Assembly (NCBI GenBank): GCA_007121455.1
Contig: SKKN01000016.1
Coordinates: 1-64,000 of the forward strand
DNA: 64,000 nucleotides
Source of the DNA: Gemmatimonadota bacterium
Lineage (GTDB): Bacteria; Gemmatimonadota; Gemmatimonadetes; Longimicrobiales; Gaopeijiaceae
Reading direction: 5' to 3'
Shown: positions 7,418 through 13,372 of the stretch, in pieces
Layout of the letters: each line of letters begins with the position of its first letter
Numbering within the stretch: position 1 is the stretch's first letter
Program-made: the position numbers and the translations under genes
The notes under the pieces: model-generated
Databases searched by the model: none
Seen by the model: the letters and a program-made list of their open reading frames with translations, nothing else
What the model was told of the DNA's origin: nothing

Positions 7418-7834
7418 ATGACCGGAGTCGCACACGCAGCCAGGAGCTTTGCGCTGGCCATTCTGGCCCTGATGCTTACCACGGGCGTGGCCCTGGCGCA
7501 GGAAAAGGAGGCCTTCACGGCGGAGCGCTTCGCGGAGCTGCAGGAACAGAATGCCTTGATCCTGCTGGATGTTTTCGCCGACTGGTGTCCGACCTGCGCC
7601 CTGCAGCAAGACATCCTGGACGACTACGTGGCGGCGCATCCGGACGTGCCGCTTCACATCCTCCAGATCGACTTCGACCGTCAGAAGGAGTACGTTCGCC
7701 GCTTCAGCGCGCCGAGGCAGTCCACCTTCATCCTGTACCAGGGTGAGGAGCGCATCTGGTTCAGCGTCGCCGAGACCGATGCGGACGTGATCGTCGGCCG
7801 TTTGAATGAGGCAGCTGCTGACGGCACGCGATGA
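7418..7834 (+). CDS. Periplasmic thioredoxin-like protein
   Basis: A 138-residue thioredoxin-fold protein with a signal peptide (cleavage after ALAQ, ~28) and the redox motif WCPTC at residues 56-60. ATG 7418 follows a GAGG element. It lacks the long insertions of TlpA/ResA proteins. It ends inside the start of the next gene, which encodes a CcdA transporter (ATGA overlap). The expected role is to receive electrons from CcdA and reduce disulfides in the periplasm, for example in apocytochrome c; a cytochrome c gene lies 3.4 kb away. Confidence 0.88.
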   Translation: MTGVAHAARSFALAILALMLTTGVALAQEKEAFTAERFAELQEQNALILLDVFADWCPTCALQQDILDDYVAAHPDVPLHILQIDFDRQKEYVRRFSAPRQSTFILYQGEERIWFSVAETDADVIVGRLNEAAADGTR

Positions 7835-8544
7835 CGTTGGAGCTCGCCGCCGTGCCCCTGGCTCTGGTGGCCGGGGTGGCCGGCATCTTGTCTCCTTGCG
7901 TCTGGCCGCTCGTACCCGTCGTCACCTCCTCCGCAGTGACGAGCGGGCGCCTCGGGCCGGTATATCTCGCGCTCGGGCTGAGCGTCTCGTTCGCCATCAC
8001 GGGGACCTTCCTGACGCTGCTTCTCGTGAGCACAGGGCTCGACCCGGAGCTCTTCCGCTACGTCGCGGCGAGCCTGCTCGTGGCGGTCGCGCTGGTGCTG
8101 CTCATTCGCACCCTGGGTGACTGGCTGACCCTCAAACTTTCCTTGGTTTCGGGCCGGTTCAACCTCGGTTCGGGTGCCGTCAGCGCGTCGGCACCCGGCC
8201 AGTTCGGTGTCGGCGCACTTCTGGGCGTCGTCTGGCTCCCCTGCGTGGGCCCGACGCTCGGTGCCGCCATTGCTTTGGCCTCGATGGGTCAGGATATGGC
8301 GGTCGCGTTCATCGTCATGTTCGCCTACGGAGTCGGCACGGCCGGCGTGCTCCTCGTTGCGGGAATGGTCTCCGGACGAGCGCTCACCCGGTGGCGCTCT
8401 ACCGCCATGTCTGGAGGCGGCATCGGGAAGAAGGTCCTCGGGTGGATGCTTCTCGGCCTCGGTCTGCTCGTGCTGACGGGTGCCGACAAGTACCTCGAGG
8501 CGCTTGCAGTCGACCTGGTGCCGGCCTGGGTGTTCACTCTGTGA
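7831..8544 (+). CDS. ccdA: Cytochrome c biogenesis/DsbD-family thiol transporter CcdA
   Basis: A 237-residue polytopic membrane protein with about six helices. It carries the two signature cysteines in SPCVWPLVP (Cys23) and LPCVGPTLG (Cys138). These relay reducing equivalents from cytoplasmic thioredoxin across the membrane. It lacks the extra N- and C-terminal domains of full DsbD. The start overlaps the stop of the thioredoxin gene by four bases, so the two form a compact electron relay. Confidence 0.9.
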   Translation: MTLELAAVPLALVAGVAGILSPCVWPLVPVVTSSAVTSGRLGPVYLALGLSVSFAITGTFLTLLLVSTGLDPELFRYVAASLLVAVALVLLIRTLGDWLTLKLSLVSGRFNLGSGAVSASAPGQFGVGALLGVVWLPCVGPTLGAAIALASMGQDMAVAFIVMFAYGVGTAGVLLVAGMVSGRALTRWRSTAMSGGGIGKKVLGWMLLGLGLLVLTGADKYLEALAVDLVPAWVFTL

Positions 8545-8928
8545 TCGGGACGATGCGTTCCGCTCGCGCGGGATTGGGTCCGTAATCCCCACCAGTACCT
8601 GAGGCCGGTCGAGGCACCAGCCTATTCTGCGATCCTCTCCACGTTGCAATGCCGCCACCTGCAGGATGCGGACGCGCATCCTGCCCTGTCGTCGTTACCG
8701 TCGCATTCCCCGAGGGGCCATTGCGTCAACTGTTGTCGCATCAACGACTTACGTGTGTCGGTGTGGCGAAGGGTACCGGCCTTGCCACCTGAGGCCCTCC
8801 GCGTCCCCACCCTCCGGGACACCTGTAGCCGGCATTCGGCCTGTGTTCGCGACGGGTTCTGGATCCCGGCGTGCCGGAGGCAGGGGGGCGGACGGATGCG
8901 AGGGGAGAAGTCGGATGTTCGAGCACCC
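8545..8928. other. Long leader/intergenic region
   Basis: About 380 bases with no recognisable gene or remnant on either strand. It precedes the riboswitch and lipoprotein gene, so it probably contains their promoter. I could not identify -35/-10 elements with confidence. Confidence 0.4.
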
Positions 8929-8929
8929 A

Positions 8930-9003
8930 TCGAAACGGCACCCCGGCGGAAACGCCGGTCCGCAAAGCCACGGGTCTCATCGAGACGGCCGGGCTGCCGA
9001 AGA
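8930..9003 (+). ncRNA. Probable cyclic-di-GMP-I (GEMM-I) riboswitch
   Basis: The stretch has the ordered elements of a GEMM-I aptamer. The P1 strand CGGCA (8936-8940) pairs with TGCCG (8995-8999). A CCGGCG/CGCCGG hairpin capped by a GAAA tetraloop lies at 8943-8958. The hallmark GCAAAGCC follows (8961-8968), and then a short GTCTC/GAGAC stem leads into GGCCGGGCTGCCGAA. The base before the C in the 5' GGC is G, matching the position that in family members favours c-di-GMP over cGAMP. The usual AAA after GGC is ACC here, a deviation. A hairpin at 9005-9030 lies between the aptamer and the ribosome-binding site of the lipoprotein gene and could be the expression platform. Confidence 0.7.
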
Positions 9004-9004
9004 G

Positions 9005-9030
9005 GGTTCCGGCGACGAGGCCGGGCAACC
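9005..9030 (+). promoter_or_regulatory. Candidate riboswitch expression-platform hairpin
   Basis: GGTTCCGGC pairs with GCCGG and AACC around a GACGAG loop, immediately after the aptamer and 9 bases before the AAGGAG ribosome-binding site. It lacks a U-run, so it is more likely to act on translation or as part of an alternative pairing than as an intrinsic terminator. Confidence 0.4.
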
Positions 9031-9052
9031 ACCGTTTCAAGGAGTGTTTGGG

Positions 9053-9967
9053 ATGAGACAGACAAGTCGATGGCTGGCGGCGGCCGGAGCGGTCGCGATT
9101 CTGGCGGCATGTTCGGATGGCCCCATGGAGCCGATCTCGCCGGGTGAGAGCGCACTCTCGCTCTCGGGGCATCTTTCGCAGGCCGGACAGAGCAACACGT
9201 GGCATGGGTACTATGCCCCCGTGCTGGAAGTGGAGGATGGACCGCAACTCTGCGCGACCTGGACGGACTTCGGTTCTCTGGAAGGCAAGCTCGAGGATCT
9301 GTACGGCGAAGGCGCGGAGCTTCCCTCGGGAGAGCCGCCGAACCACTACAGCTACGACTTCGAGCTCTGGGAAGAGGGCGAGGGCGATGGGGAGTGGATC
9401 AAGGTCGAGACGGTAAACGGCGATCCGGAAGAAGGGATGACGGCTTGTCTCGATCTCTCCGAGTGGGATGACGGCACCTACAAGCTCCGCGTGAAGGGAA
9501 TCGCCCACGTTGGGTCCGGGCCGGACCGCTCGAATCATCACACCGACTATGCATACGAAGAGGTGACGGTCGGGAGCACCGGGTTCTCGTTCTTCATCGC
9601 GCATGGCAACGCAAATACCGTCGAAGCGGGAGAGATCGTAGCGACGCCGGGCGGCAATGCGTGGCACCTGGATATCCAGCTGCACTATGGCGGGGTGGCC
9701 CTCGACTGCACCACGGACCTCCCAGCGGAGCTGGAAGCGATGACTCTCACGTGGGAGACCTCGCCCTTTACGGAAGCCGAAACGTGGAGCCGTGACCTTC
9801 CGAACGGCCAGAACGACCTCAAGTGCCAGGACTCCGGCTGGTTCCGGATCTCCGTTAATCAGACGGGCCAGCCGAGCTGGCCCGATTCCGGCACGCTCAG
9901 CCTCGAAGTCGTCTACGACGGCGTGACCCTCTCCGCAGGGGAGTACACCTACGACCTTTCGCAGTAA
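9053..9967 (+). CDS. Secreted lipoprotein-like protein under riboswitch control
   Basis: 304 residues. ATG 9053 lies 8 bases after AAGGAG. The signal ends in AILAACSDG, so Cys21 is a probable lipidated residue. The mature part is acidic and rich in Trp, Tyr and Gly. It contains two Ig/fibronectin-like halves: residues ~45-175 include DDGTYKLRVKGIAH, and ~180-300 include GTLSLEVVYDGVTLSAGEY. Cysteines are sparse and could pair. No enzyme motif is seen. With a c-di-GMP riboswitch upstream and a strong terminator downstream, it looks like a one-gene unit encoding a surface protein tied to the motile/sessile switch; that role is inference. Confidence 0.75.
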   Translation: MRQTSRWLAAAGAVAILAACSDGPMEPISPGESALSLSGHLSQAGQSNTWHGYYAPVLEVEDGPQLCATWTDFGSLEGKLEDLYGEGAELPSGEPPNHYSYDFELWEEGEGDGEWIKVETVNGDPEEGMTACLDLSEWDDGTYKLRVKGIAHVGSGPDRSNHHTDYAYEEVTVGSTGFSFFIAHGNANTVEAGEIVATPGGNAWHLDIQLHYGGVALDCTTDLPAELEAMTLTWETSPFTEAETWSRDLPNGQNDLKCQDSGWFRISVNQTGQPSWPDSGTLSLEVVYDGVTLSAGEYTYDLSQ

Positions 9968-9982
9968 CCGGCACGACGGCAA

Positions 9983-10024
9983 CGATGGGGGCCGAAGCGG
10001 CGTGTTCCGCTTCGGCCCTCATCG
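9983..10024 (+). terminator. Long hairpin terminator after the lipoprotein gene
   Basis: A perfect GGGCCGAAGCGG/CCGCTTCGGCCC stem with a 6-base loop, extended by CGATG/CATCG pairing to about 18 bp, starts 16 bases after the stop codon. There is no U-run, so termination efficiency is uncertain. Confidence 0.6.
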
Positions 10025-10501: not shown

Positions 10502-11659
10502 GTGACTGACCAGCAACTGAGTGCAATCGCGAGCTTGATCACGGAGGGCCGGAGCGCGCTCCTCACCCGCTGGCGGGAGGAGGTGCGGAAGCTCCCCGCA
10601 GCCGAGGATCTCGACGAGCCCACGCTGACCAACCATGTCCCACATCTCCTCGATGAGCTTGCCGAGGCACTCCGGTCCGATTCCCAGGAGACGATCACCT
10701 CTGCCCTGAAAGGGGGGCTTTCGCCGGTTCATGGTACGGATCGTTTCGCACACAGCTTCGACGTCGAGGAGGTCGTGGCCGAATACAACATCCTCCGCAC
10801 CGCCATCCACGACATGGTGGAGGAGCACGGTCTCCGGCTCCAGGGAGAGCCATTCCGGGTGCTGAATCGCGTGTTGGACGGCGCGATCGGGGCGGCGGTC
10901 AAGGCGTACACGGCGCGCCAGGCGCTGGAGGTAAAGCGCCAACGGGAGGACTACCTCGCCTTCGTGGCGCACGACCTGCGGGCCCCGCTGCACTCCCTGT
11001 CGATGGCGACCACGGTGCTCGAGTTGACGCTTCCCGACGAAACCCGTGAGCCGGAGACCAGCCGGCTCCTGGAGATGTTCCGCCGCAACATCGAGAACCT
11101 CGACGGGCTCGCCGAGGCGGTGGTTCGCGGAAGCGTCCGGATCGAGACCAGAAGGGGGCGCCGAGCGGAGCGGCGGAAATTCGCTCTCTTCCCGCTGGTC
11201 GAAGCCGTGCTCCATGGGTTCGCCCCCGTCGCCCGCGTGGGAAGCACCGACCTCCGCAATGACGTGCCGGAGGGGCTCGAGGTCGAGGCCGATGCTCTCC
11301 TCCTGAGCCGAATCTTTCAGAACCTGGTCGCAAATGCCCTTACCCACGCGCAGGGCGCGCAGGTGACGGTCGGAGCGATAGAGAGGACCGAGGAATCGAT
11401 GGTGGAGTGCTGGGTGCACGATACCGGGGCAGGGATCCCCCAGAAAATCGTGGAGCAAATGTTCGAGGCCTCCAGCACCAGTGAACCCGAAAGCCACTCC
11501 GGCCTGGGTCTCGCGATCGTCCGGAGGTTCGTGGAGGCCCACGGTGGCGAGGTGACCGTGGAGAGCGAGGAGAAAAGGGGGTCGACCTTTCGGTTCACGC
11601 TTCCGCGACAGTCCGCGTTACGGGGTCGCCGGCGGGGACGAAGGCAGCCTGAGCTTTAG
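10502..11659 (+). CDS. Soluble sensor histidine kinase with RsbRD-like N-terminal domain
   Basis: 385 residues, GTG start at 10502. Residues ~1-140 form an all-helical RsbRD/globin-like sensor (LLTRWREEVRKLP, FDVEEVVAEYNILRTAI). The HisKA motif FVAHDLRAPLHSL has the phospho-acceptor His157. Then come the N-box NLVANALTHA, G1 DTGAGIP and G2 SHSGLGLAIVRRFVEAHGG. There are no membrane segments, so it is cytoplasmic. No response regulator is adjacent, so it is an orphan kinase. It converges with a second orphan kinase only 21 bases away. Confidence 0.87.
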   Translation: MTDQQLSAIASLITEGRSALLTRWREEVRKLPAAEDLDEPTLTNHVPHLLDELAEALRSDSQETITSALKGGLSPVHGTDRFAHSFDVEEVVAEYNILRTAIHDMVEEHGLRLQGEPFRVLNRVLDGAIGAAVKAYTARQALEVKRQREDYLAFVAHDLRAPLHSLSMATTVLELTLPDETREPETSRLLEMFRRNIENLDGLAEAVVRGSVRIETRRGRRAERRKFALFPLVEAVLHGFAPVARVGSTDLRNDVPEGLEVEADALLLSRIFQNLVANALTHAQGAQVTVGAIERTEESMVECWVHDTGAGIPQKIVEQMFEASSTSEPESHSGLGLAIVRRFVEAHGGEVTVESEEKRGSTFRFTLPRQSALRGRRRGRRQPEL

Positions 11660-11680: not shown

Positions 11681-13372
11681 TCAGGATGCAACCGGGTCCG
11701 CGACCGGGAGCCGGAGCGAGAAGGTGCTTCCCTCTTCCGACTCGCTTTCGGCGTAGAGGTCTCCGCCCATCGCGCGGGCCAGGTTTCGGCTGATCGTCAA
11801 CCCGAGCCCAACCCCTTCCACCGGGTTATCGAGGTCGCGGGCGCCCTGGACGAACGGTTCGAAGATCTCCTGCTGCTGCTCCGTGGCGATGCCCGGACCG
11901 GTGTCGGATACGTGGAGGTCGACCCAGTCCTCATCCTCCTCGCAGGTCAGAAGGACCCGGCCGCCACCGGGTGTGAACTTGATGGCATTTCCCACGACGT
12001 TGACGAGAATCTGCCTCACCCTTTCTTCATCAGCATGCAGATGAAGCGGGGAAACGGGGTCCTCGATGGTGAGCTCGATCCCCTTCTCCTGTGCAAACGG
12101 GGATACGAGAGGGTGCATGCTCTGTAGGATCTGGTCCGCGGCCAGCACCTGCAGATCGAAGGTGAGTTGTCCGGCTTCCAGCTTTGCGTAGGTGAGCACG
12201 TCGTTGACCAGCGTCGTGAGATGCCGCTGGTTCGCCTTCACGCGGGAGAGCACGAGGTGCTGTGCCTCATTCACCGGGCCCTGGACGCCGAGAGCCAGCA
12301 GGTCGATGTAGCCGGAGATCGCATGGAGGGGCGTCCGGAAGTCGTGGCTCATCGCCGCGAGGAAGTCCATCTTCGCCCGGTTCGCGATCTCCGCCTGTTC
12401 CCGTGCCTGTTCGGCTTCGAGACGGGCCAGCACGGTGTCGGTCACATCCGCCCCGTGGAAGATGACGCCGGACCGTGTCCCGTCCGTCTTCCTGATCGGC
12501 ACGCACGAGATGTCGATGAATCGCTCCTCGAGGGGCTGGCGGGGAGAACGGGTCAGCAGGACGGATACCTCACGCCCCACGAACGGCTCGCCGAGACCCA
12601 GCACGCCGTCGAGTAGATCGACGAACCCCTGGTCTGCGACTTCCGGGAGGGCCTCGCGCAGGGGTTTCCCGAGGACGGTGCGGAGTCCGGTGAGTTGGTC
12701 GAAGGCGGCGTTCGTCGACTCGAAGACGTGGTCGGGACCTCGCAGGATCGCGAGAAACGCGGGCGCATGATGGAAGGCGTATTCGAGGTGGGAGCGTTGT
12801 AGCGCGAGCTCCCCGAGCAAGCGGTCCCTCTCCGCACGGAGAGGTCGTGCGAGCATCTCCAGCGTGGTCTCGATCGAGGTGATGAGAACCCCCGCCACCT
12901 CCCCAGACTCGTCGCGAACGGGGCCGTAGGAAAAGGTGAAGTGGCCGTCCTCCTGGAACCCACGTCGCGCGACCCGGAGAAGCAGATCCTCGCGGTACAC
13001 CGTCTCCCCTCGCAGCACCTCCTCGAGAAGGGGCTCAATCTCATCCCGGATCTCGGACCGGTTCTCGAGCATCGGGCGACCCAGGGCCCCGGGGTGCTTG
13101 TTTCCGAGAAGCTTCCGGTAGGAGTCATTATAGATCTGAAGCAGGTCCGGGCCCCAGCACAGCGCCTGGGCGAACCCCTGTCCGATGACCATTGCCGCCG
13201 CCGTCTTCAGACTCTGGGGCCAGTCGTCCACGGGTCCCAGTGACGTGGCTGCCCAGTCCTTCTCCCGGCAAAGTCGCCCCATCTCCCCGCCGGAGACGAA
13301 GACCCCTTCTGATTCACGAGCTCGGTGGTCTGAACCGCGCATGGTCGGCACTCTCGGAGCAGGTGGCATCAC
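11681..13372 (-). CDS. PAS-type sensor histidine kinase (soluble)
   Basis: 563 residues. The N-terminal sensor contains GEMGRLCREKDWAATSLGP and YNDSYRKLLGNKHPGALG (about 29-98), typical of the first PAS-like domain in multi-PAS bacterial kinases. A second PAS (about 195-312) follows, then a coiled linker and HisKA MSHDFRTPLHAISGY with His343. HATPase motifs are NVVGNAIKFT, DTGPGIA and GVGLGLTISRNLARAMGG. There are no transmembrane helices and no receiver domain, and no partner regulator is nearby. Internal starts at 13342 and 13282 are possible. Confidence 0.87.
   Translation of the reverse strand: MMPPAPRVPTMRGSDHRARESEGVFVSGGEMGRLCREKDWAATSLGPVDDWPQSLKTAAAMVIGQGFAQALCWGPDLLQIYNDSYRKLLGNKHPGALGRPMLENRSEIRDEIEPLLEEVLRGETVYREDLLLRVARRGFQEDGHFTFSYGPVRDESGEVAGVLITSIETTLEMLARPLRAERDRLLGELALQRSHLEYAFHHAPAFLAILRGPDHVFESTNAAFDQLTGLRTVLGKPLREALPEVADQGFVDLLDGVLGLGEPFVGREVSVLLTRSPRQPLEERFIDISCVPIRKTDGTRSGVIFHGADVTDTVLARLEAEQAREQAEIANRAKMDFLAAMSHDFRTPLHAISGYIDLLALGVQGPVNEAQHLVLSRVKANQRHLTTLVNDVLTYAKLEAGQLTFDLQVLAADQILQSMHPLVSPFAQEKGIELTIEDPVSPLHLHADEERVRQILVNVVGNAIKFTPGGGRVLLTCEEDEDWVDLHVSDTGPGIATEQQQEIFEPFVQGARDLDNPVEGVGLGLTISRNLARAMGGDLYAESESEEGSTFSLRLPVADPVAS

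Follow-up and report, generated by a model that had tools for sequence, protein, structure and literature searches.

At the sequence level, covariance models confirmed that the leader of a lipoprotein gene in the window, by which we mean the whole stretch of 64,000 nucleotides of Gemmatimonadota DNA analysed here, contains a real riboswitch of the well-known c-di-GMP-I class. On balance, and with some reserve, we favour the view that this RNA is a cis-acting element which would control the translation of the single lipoprotein gene as an ON switch. While the riboswitch class and its mechanism are already known, the most useful additions made here are a lipoprotein regulon and a testable ON-switch pairing. 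A literature search disclosed no paper of substance on c-di-GMP riboswitches in Gemmatimonadota.

Identification and structure of the aptamer

At curated thresholds the Rfam scan yielded one match in the 64-kb window. The best-scoring model, RF03167 (c-di-GMP-I-GGC), matched positions 8928-9002 of the forward strand over its full length with 63 bits (E 1.6e-12), the gathering cut-off being 59 bits. RF01051 recognized the leader RNA as well, with a score of 59.4 bits against a cut-off of 35 bits. Thus, the call of a c-di-GMP-I riboswitch made by the first-pass annotation, which had proposed RF01051 as a check, was borne out, RF03167 being the best family. A match to a SAM riboswitch overlapping 8974-9059 reached 17.8 bits with a cut-off of 44.4 and was rejected as chance.

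The elements that had been read from the letters, namely P1, a GAAA-capped hairpin, the GCAAAGCC hallmark (8962-8969, +), a spacer hairpin and then the ribosome-binding site, are all present in this order. The bounds of the aptamer, originally given as 8930-9052, had to be corrected to 8925-9007 (+), including an extended P1, on the basis of both Rfam models and covariation in relatives. P1 is short and interrupted; as read from the sequence, it is made up of 8925-8928/9004-9007 plus 8931-8932/8998-8999. The P2 hairpin (8938-8963) carries the GAAA tetraloop at 8949-8952, and the P3 hairpin (8966-8995), delimited by alignment and covariation, has a two-base GG bulge at 8987-8988. Further downstream the spacer hairpin GGUUCCGGC-GACGAG-GCCGGGCAACC (9005-9030), whose base competes with P1 for 9005-9007, is followed by the ribosome-binding region CCGUUUCAAGGAGUGUUUGGG (9032-9052) with the Shine-Dalgarno (SD) sequence AAGGAG at 9039-9044.

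The fold is conserved. When 28 relatives were aligned (25 of them of the ACC/UCC type described below), 94.9% of the P2/P3 cells were paired, and double-sided changes affected 11 of 20 pairs; none of 500 shuffles was as good.

The ACC/UCC variant of the P2 internal loop

In the window RNA, the canonical 3x3 internal loop AAA/GAC of P2 is replaced by ACC (8940-8942) opposite UCC (8959-8961). The exchange converts A24·A43/A25·G42 to C24·C43/C25·U42, C25 being located at 8942 and U42 at 8959. The first-pass annotation had described ACC in place of AAA as unusual. The ACC indeed exists, yet it faces UCC and recurs in many bacteria and is therefore no peculiarity of one RNA. Although A25 and G42 have been listed as highly conserved (PMC3764141) and are C8942 and U8959 here, relatives harboring ACC/UCC still pass RF01051 and RF03167. 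Since the exchange is common in relatives passing the models, we treated ACC/UCC as a subtype and not as a reason for exclusion.

The pattern used to scan a public genome collection admitted either base at positions 25 and 42 independently, and a loose aptamer filter was applied afterwards. The filtered matches comprised 45 A25·G42 and 19 C25·U42 aptamers, whereas the mixed combinations were found once and four times, respectively (Fisher P 3.5e-12). The rarity of mixed pairs indicates that C25·U42 replaces A25·G42 as a unit, along with C24·C43. Outside the Gemmatimonadota, ACC/UCC aptamers were detected in records labelled Actinobacteria, Acidobacteria and Armatimonadetes. In the order to which the window belongs, a pattern search gave 33 such aptamers (the window's own perhaps counted) in 18 of 154 genomes, and the analysed class-level matches from outside this order included none. 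Hence, the apparent defect is in fact a coordinated variant of wide distribution. It resides in the lower part of P2, where changes have been reported to alter affinity and selectivity for c-di-GMP and cGAMP and thereby to influence the choice of ligand (PMC9262584).

The predicted target gene and the linkage to lipoproteins

The aptamer is situated directly before one lipobox gene (9053-9967, +), which supports the suggested control of a single lipoprotein gene. Its product, starting with the ATG at 9053, is a lipoprotein of 304 amino acids with the lipobox LAAC at residues 17-20 (MRQTSRWLAAAGAVAILAAC followed by S). A strong 16-bp hairpin at 9985-10022 (+), terminator-like without a T run (-31.7 kcal/mol, z -6.9), lies 3' of the gene and makes a single-gene unit likely. 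The lipoprotein reached the cut-off of no Pfam or NCBIfam family, and a structure model built from two sequences was of low confidence (mean pLDDT 40.5). Clear homologues among 395 genomes of the phylum were restricted to G025 (E 2e-23) and G119 (E 1e-9). In G025, which represents another family of the order, the homologue begins immediately downstream of an ACC/UCC aptamer (L127); at the G119 gene no aptamer was found.

Within the order the ACC/UCC variant is locally common and stands nearly always before genes of predicted lipoproteins. A lipobox protein was encoded downstream of 26 of the 29 ACC/UCC aptamers with a placeable start compared to 13% of background ORFs showing this lipobox pattern, an excess somewhat inflated by a start picker that favoured hydrophobic N-termini; one gene behind a tandem pair was counted twice among the 29. 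The proteins behind these aptamers are diverse, since three of ten scanned were subtilases and the others had no Pfam match. In relatives, subtilase-family (Peptidase_S8) lipoproteins follow the ACC/UCC riboswitches L333, L336 and L343, a hint that surface proteases are controlled by c-di-GMP. Some relatives also carry c-di-GMP-I aptamers in tandem, spaced by about 85-180 bases (L193/L345, G033:C48:33385-33543; L196/L351, G042:C120:10676-10840; L182, G015:C174:3537-3812).

By these data an orphan lipoprotein family, and many other lipoproteins of a little-studied order, are placed under predicted direct control by c-di-GMP and may thus serve in attachment to surfaces or in biofilms. For the lipoprotein of the window we infer, in agreement with the first-pass annotation, a function as a c-di-GMP-regulated surface factor. 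One may go further and propose that ACC/UCC is a distinct GEMM-I subtype in which the exchanged loop of lower P2 retunes affinity or cyclic-dinucleotide selectivity. In this order it would then serve as a translational ON switch dedicated to lipoproteins and have a regulon of its own, comprising orphan lipoproteins and surface subtilases; we regard this proposal in its entirety as rather doubtful.

Just upstream of the riboswitch, the window encodes at 7418-8544 a thioredoxin-like protein and then a DsbD-type membrane protein with overlapping ends, likely a thiol-redox pair. A histidine-kinase-like protein with an RsbRD_N domain is encoded at 10502-11659 (+), and a second sensor-kinase-like ORF occupies 11681-13372 on the opposite strand.

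Predicted mode of switching

According to the ON model, the 5' strand at 8918-8938 (+), i.e., the 5' side of P1 and J1/2 up to G21, would pair in the absence of c-di-GMP with the ribosome-binding region 9032-9052 and hide the SD sequence. As this strand holds G20, G21 and the 5' side of P1, the pairing excludes the bound aptamer. When c-di-GMP is present, G20 and C92 would recognise its two guanines, and A47 would stack between these. Closure of P1 and of the P2/P3 junction would then use up the 5' strand, by which the ribosome-binding site would be freed and the lipoprotein made.

For the duplex 8918-8938/9032-9052 we calculated -20.8 kcal/mol, a strength which was attained by 0.1% of the strand shuffles and by about 0.8-1% of spacer shuffles or genomic windows. 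In the free leader ensemble, the apo helix had a mean probability of 0.93 over 18 choices of ends. Enforcing the aptamer raised the mean unpairedness of the SD from 0.44 to 0.65, a modest gain in accessibility that varies with the chosen 3' end, at a cost of approximately 10 kcal/mol, which tight binding of c-di-GMP could roughly pay.

The pairing was also studied in the ACC/UCC relatives of the order. Their own 5'-strand/SD duplexes were stronger than those with swapped partners (z -2.9, P about 0.004, n = 26), the discovery and test sets overlapping and the seven fresh members alone giving P 0.04. When long leaders were scanned along the aptamer, the 5' stretch gave the clearest pairing signal (z -3.4). 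The own-partner excess was not significant in MFE folds of chimeras (13 of 26 compared to 10.7 expected, P 0.18). An independent class-level set of A25·G42 types without an ACC/UCC member showed no effect in the own-versus-swapped test (n = 21, P 0.80), so that the ON-switch rule is supported for the ACC/UCC subtype only.

The main rival to the ON model is OFF or transcriptional control: either P1 of the bound aptamer would release a downstream strand to block the ribosome-binding site, or transcription would end at the spacer hairpin. We consider this rival possible rather than probable. Cyclic-dinucleotide riboswitches with such aptamers work as ON or OFF switches (PMC9262584), and the SD of short-leader relatives adjoins the 3' strand of the aptamer or lies within it, which fits an OFF switch there. 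Moreover, with the aptamer enforced in the window RNA, the SD is still partly paired downstream for some 3' ends. The hairpin at 9005-9030, however, has no U tract, and no intrinsic terminator or terminator-like site was found between the aptamer and the start of the gene. The strong alternative pairing that was detected masks the SD when the ligand is absent, not when it is bound. For the window RNA we thus infer translational control in the ON direction. In AAA/GAC relatives such as L011, L014, L017 and L023, the 3' strand of P1 contains GAAG or GAGG and is separated from the start codon by only about 10-30 bases; the ribosome-binding site of these short leaders could be masked by P1, an OFF-switch geometry.

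Ligand pocket and predicted ligand

The bases recognising the ligand are G20, A47, A48 and C92 (PMC3764141, PMC4744006). By alignment, and in the numbering of Vc2, the window RNA has the ligand-contacting G20 at 8937, the ligand-stacking and pocket bases A47 and A48 at 8964-8965, and C92, the Watson-Crick partner of one ligand guanine (PMC4744006), at 8997 (all +). C44 (8961) and G83 (8988, in the P3 bulge) are present as a candidate interhelical pair according to published residue rules (PMC3764141). The RF03167 consensus contains G at position 47 (model GCGAAGCC), whereas the window RNA has A47 (GCAAAGCC). Because the pocket is canonical and the G47 of the model is absent, c-di-GMP is the predicted ligand and not an altered one. 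We read "GGC" in the name of RF03167 as bases 20/47/92, and the Rfam name of the best match should not be equated with a ligand class.

Sensing of another cyclic dinucleotide, either 3',3'-cGAMP or a "GGC"-class ligand, is nevertheless brought into play by the best-scoring family being c-di-GMP-I-GGC and by the alteration of lower P2, a kind of change reported to shift c-di-GMP/cGAMP affinity and selectivity (PMC9262584). We judge it unlikely. G20, A47 and C92 are canonical, and G47 is missing here as in nearly all RF03167 matches of the phylum, which also have A47. The genome contains 12 GGDEF matches. The canonical aspartate of GHxxGD was found in all eight with a readable motif, none of which is of the Hypr type (Ser), the other four matches being weaker. 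The SMODS model for CD-NTases gave no match in this genome, which is 95.6% complete. In Hypr-type GGDEF domains, a serine takes the place of the GHxxGD aspartate. It is such serine-bearing enzymes that make cGAMP (PMC6456294). The canonical GGDEF proteins, together with the failure to find SMODS/CD-NTase, indicate that c-di-GMP is available.

Four further c-di-GMP-I-type aptamers were identified in the genome (L002-L005: G000:C47:2400-2491-, C77:39099-39191+, C16:6253-6342- and C29:57059-57158-). All four combine A20, which has been linked to the sensing of cGAMP, with G48 (GCAGAGC or GCAGAGT), and this combination recurs in 12 aptamers of the phylum set. Three of the four lie upstream of lipoprotein-like ORFs, though Hypr GGDEF and CD-NTase were not found.

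Other pairings and chance resemblance

The 5' strand and loop of P3 (GUCUCAUC, 8974-8981) might pair with the start codon region (GAUGAGAC, 9052-9059) in the unliganded RNA and block initiation. Eight bases are perfectly complementary, and only 0.5% of genomic windows pair equally well with the start region. Yet in the relative L344, which has an identical P3 loop, the start region ATGAGGCAC matches less well, and across relatives own pairs had no advantage over swapped ones (z -1.0 and 0.3). Moreover, P3 by itself folds into a stable local hairpin, and the MFE structure is favoured in energy over the enforced state. With no support from relatives, sequestration of the start codon by P3 was rejected as very improbable. 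Pairing of the P3 strand with the SD was also discarded, its own-partner signal being absent in the ACC/UCC group. Finally, the short and interrupted P1 could point to a chance resemblance or a decayed, functionless element, which is scarcely credible in view of the E value of 1.6e-12, the covariation and a lipoprotein linkage kept across families.

Comparison with known riboswitches

The 3',3'-cGAMP riboswitch of Geobacter (GEMM-Ib) has the same fold as the window RNA, and GEMM-Ib RNAs control surface proteins, among which are lipoproteins in Geobacter (PMC6456294). Its recognition of cGAMP is tied to A20, whereas the window RNA has G at 8937; the four paralogues of the genome have A20. A cGAMP synthase (Hypr GGDEF with Ser or CD-NTase) was not detected in the genome, as all eight readable GGDEF motifs have GD and SMODS matches were 0. 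With RF03167, the window RNA shares the best score, obtained over the full length and above the cut-off, and a similar P3; it differs by A47 instead of the G47 of the model.

The P3 of Vc2 from Vibrio cholerae (GEMM-I, RF01051) is of the tetraloop-receptor type, while the window RNA has a plain base-paired P3 at this place. Further differences to Vc2 and GEMM-I are the ACC/UCC loop instead of AAA/GAC and the short, interrupted P1. Common to both are the three-way junction of P1, P2 and P3, the GAAA loop, the G20/A47/A48/C92 pocket, C44 together with a G in the P3 bulge, and a site before the gene of an exported protein.
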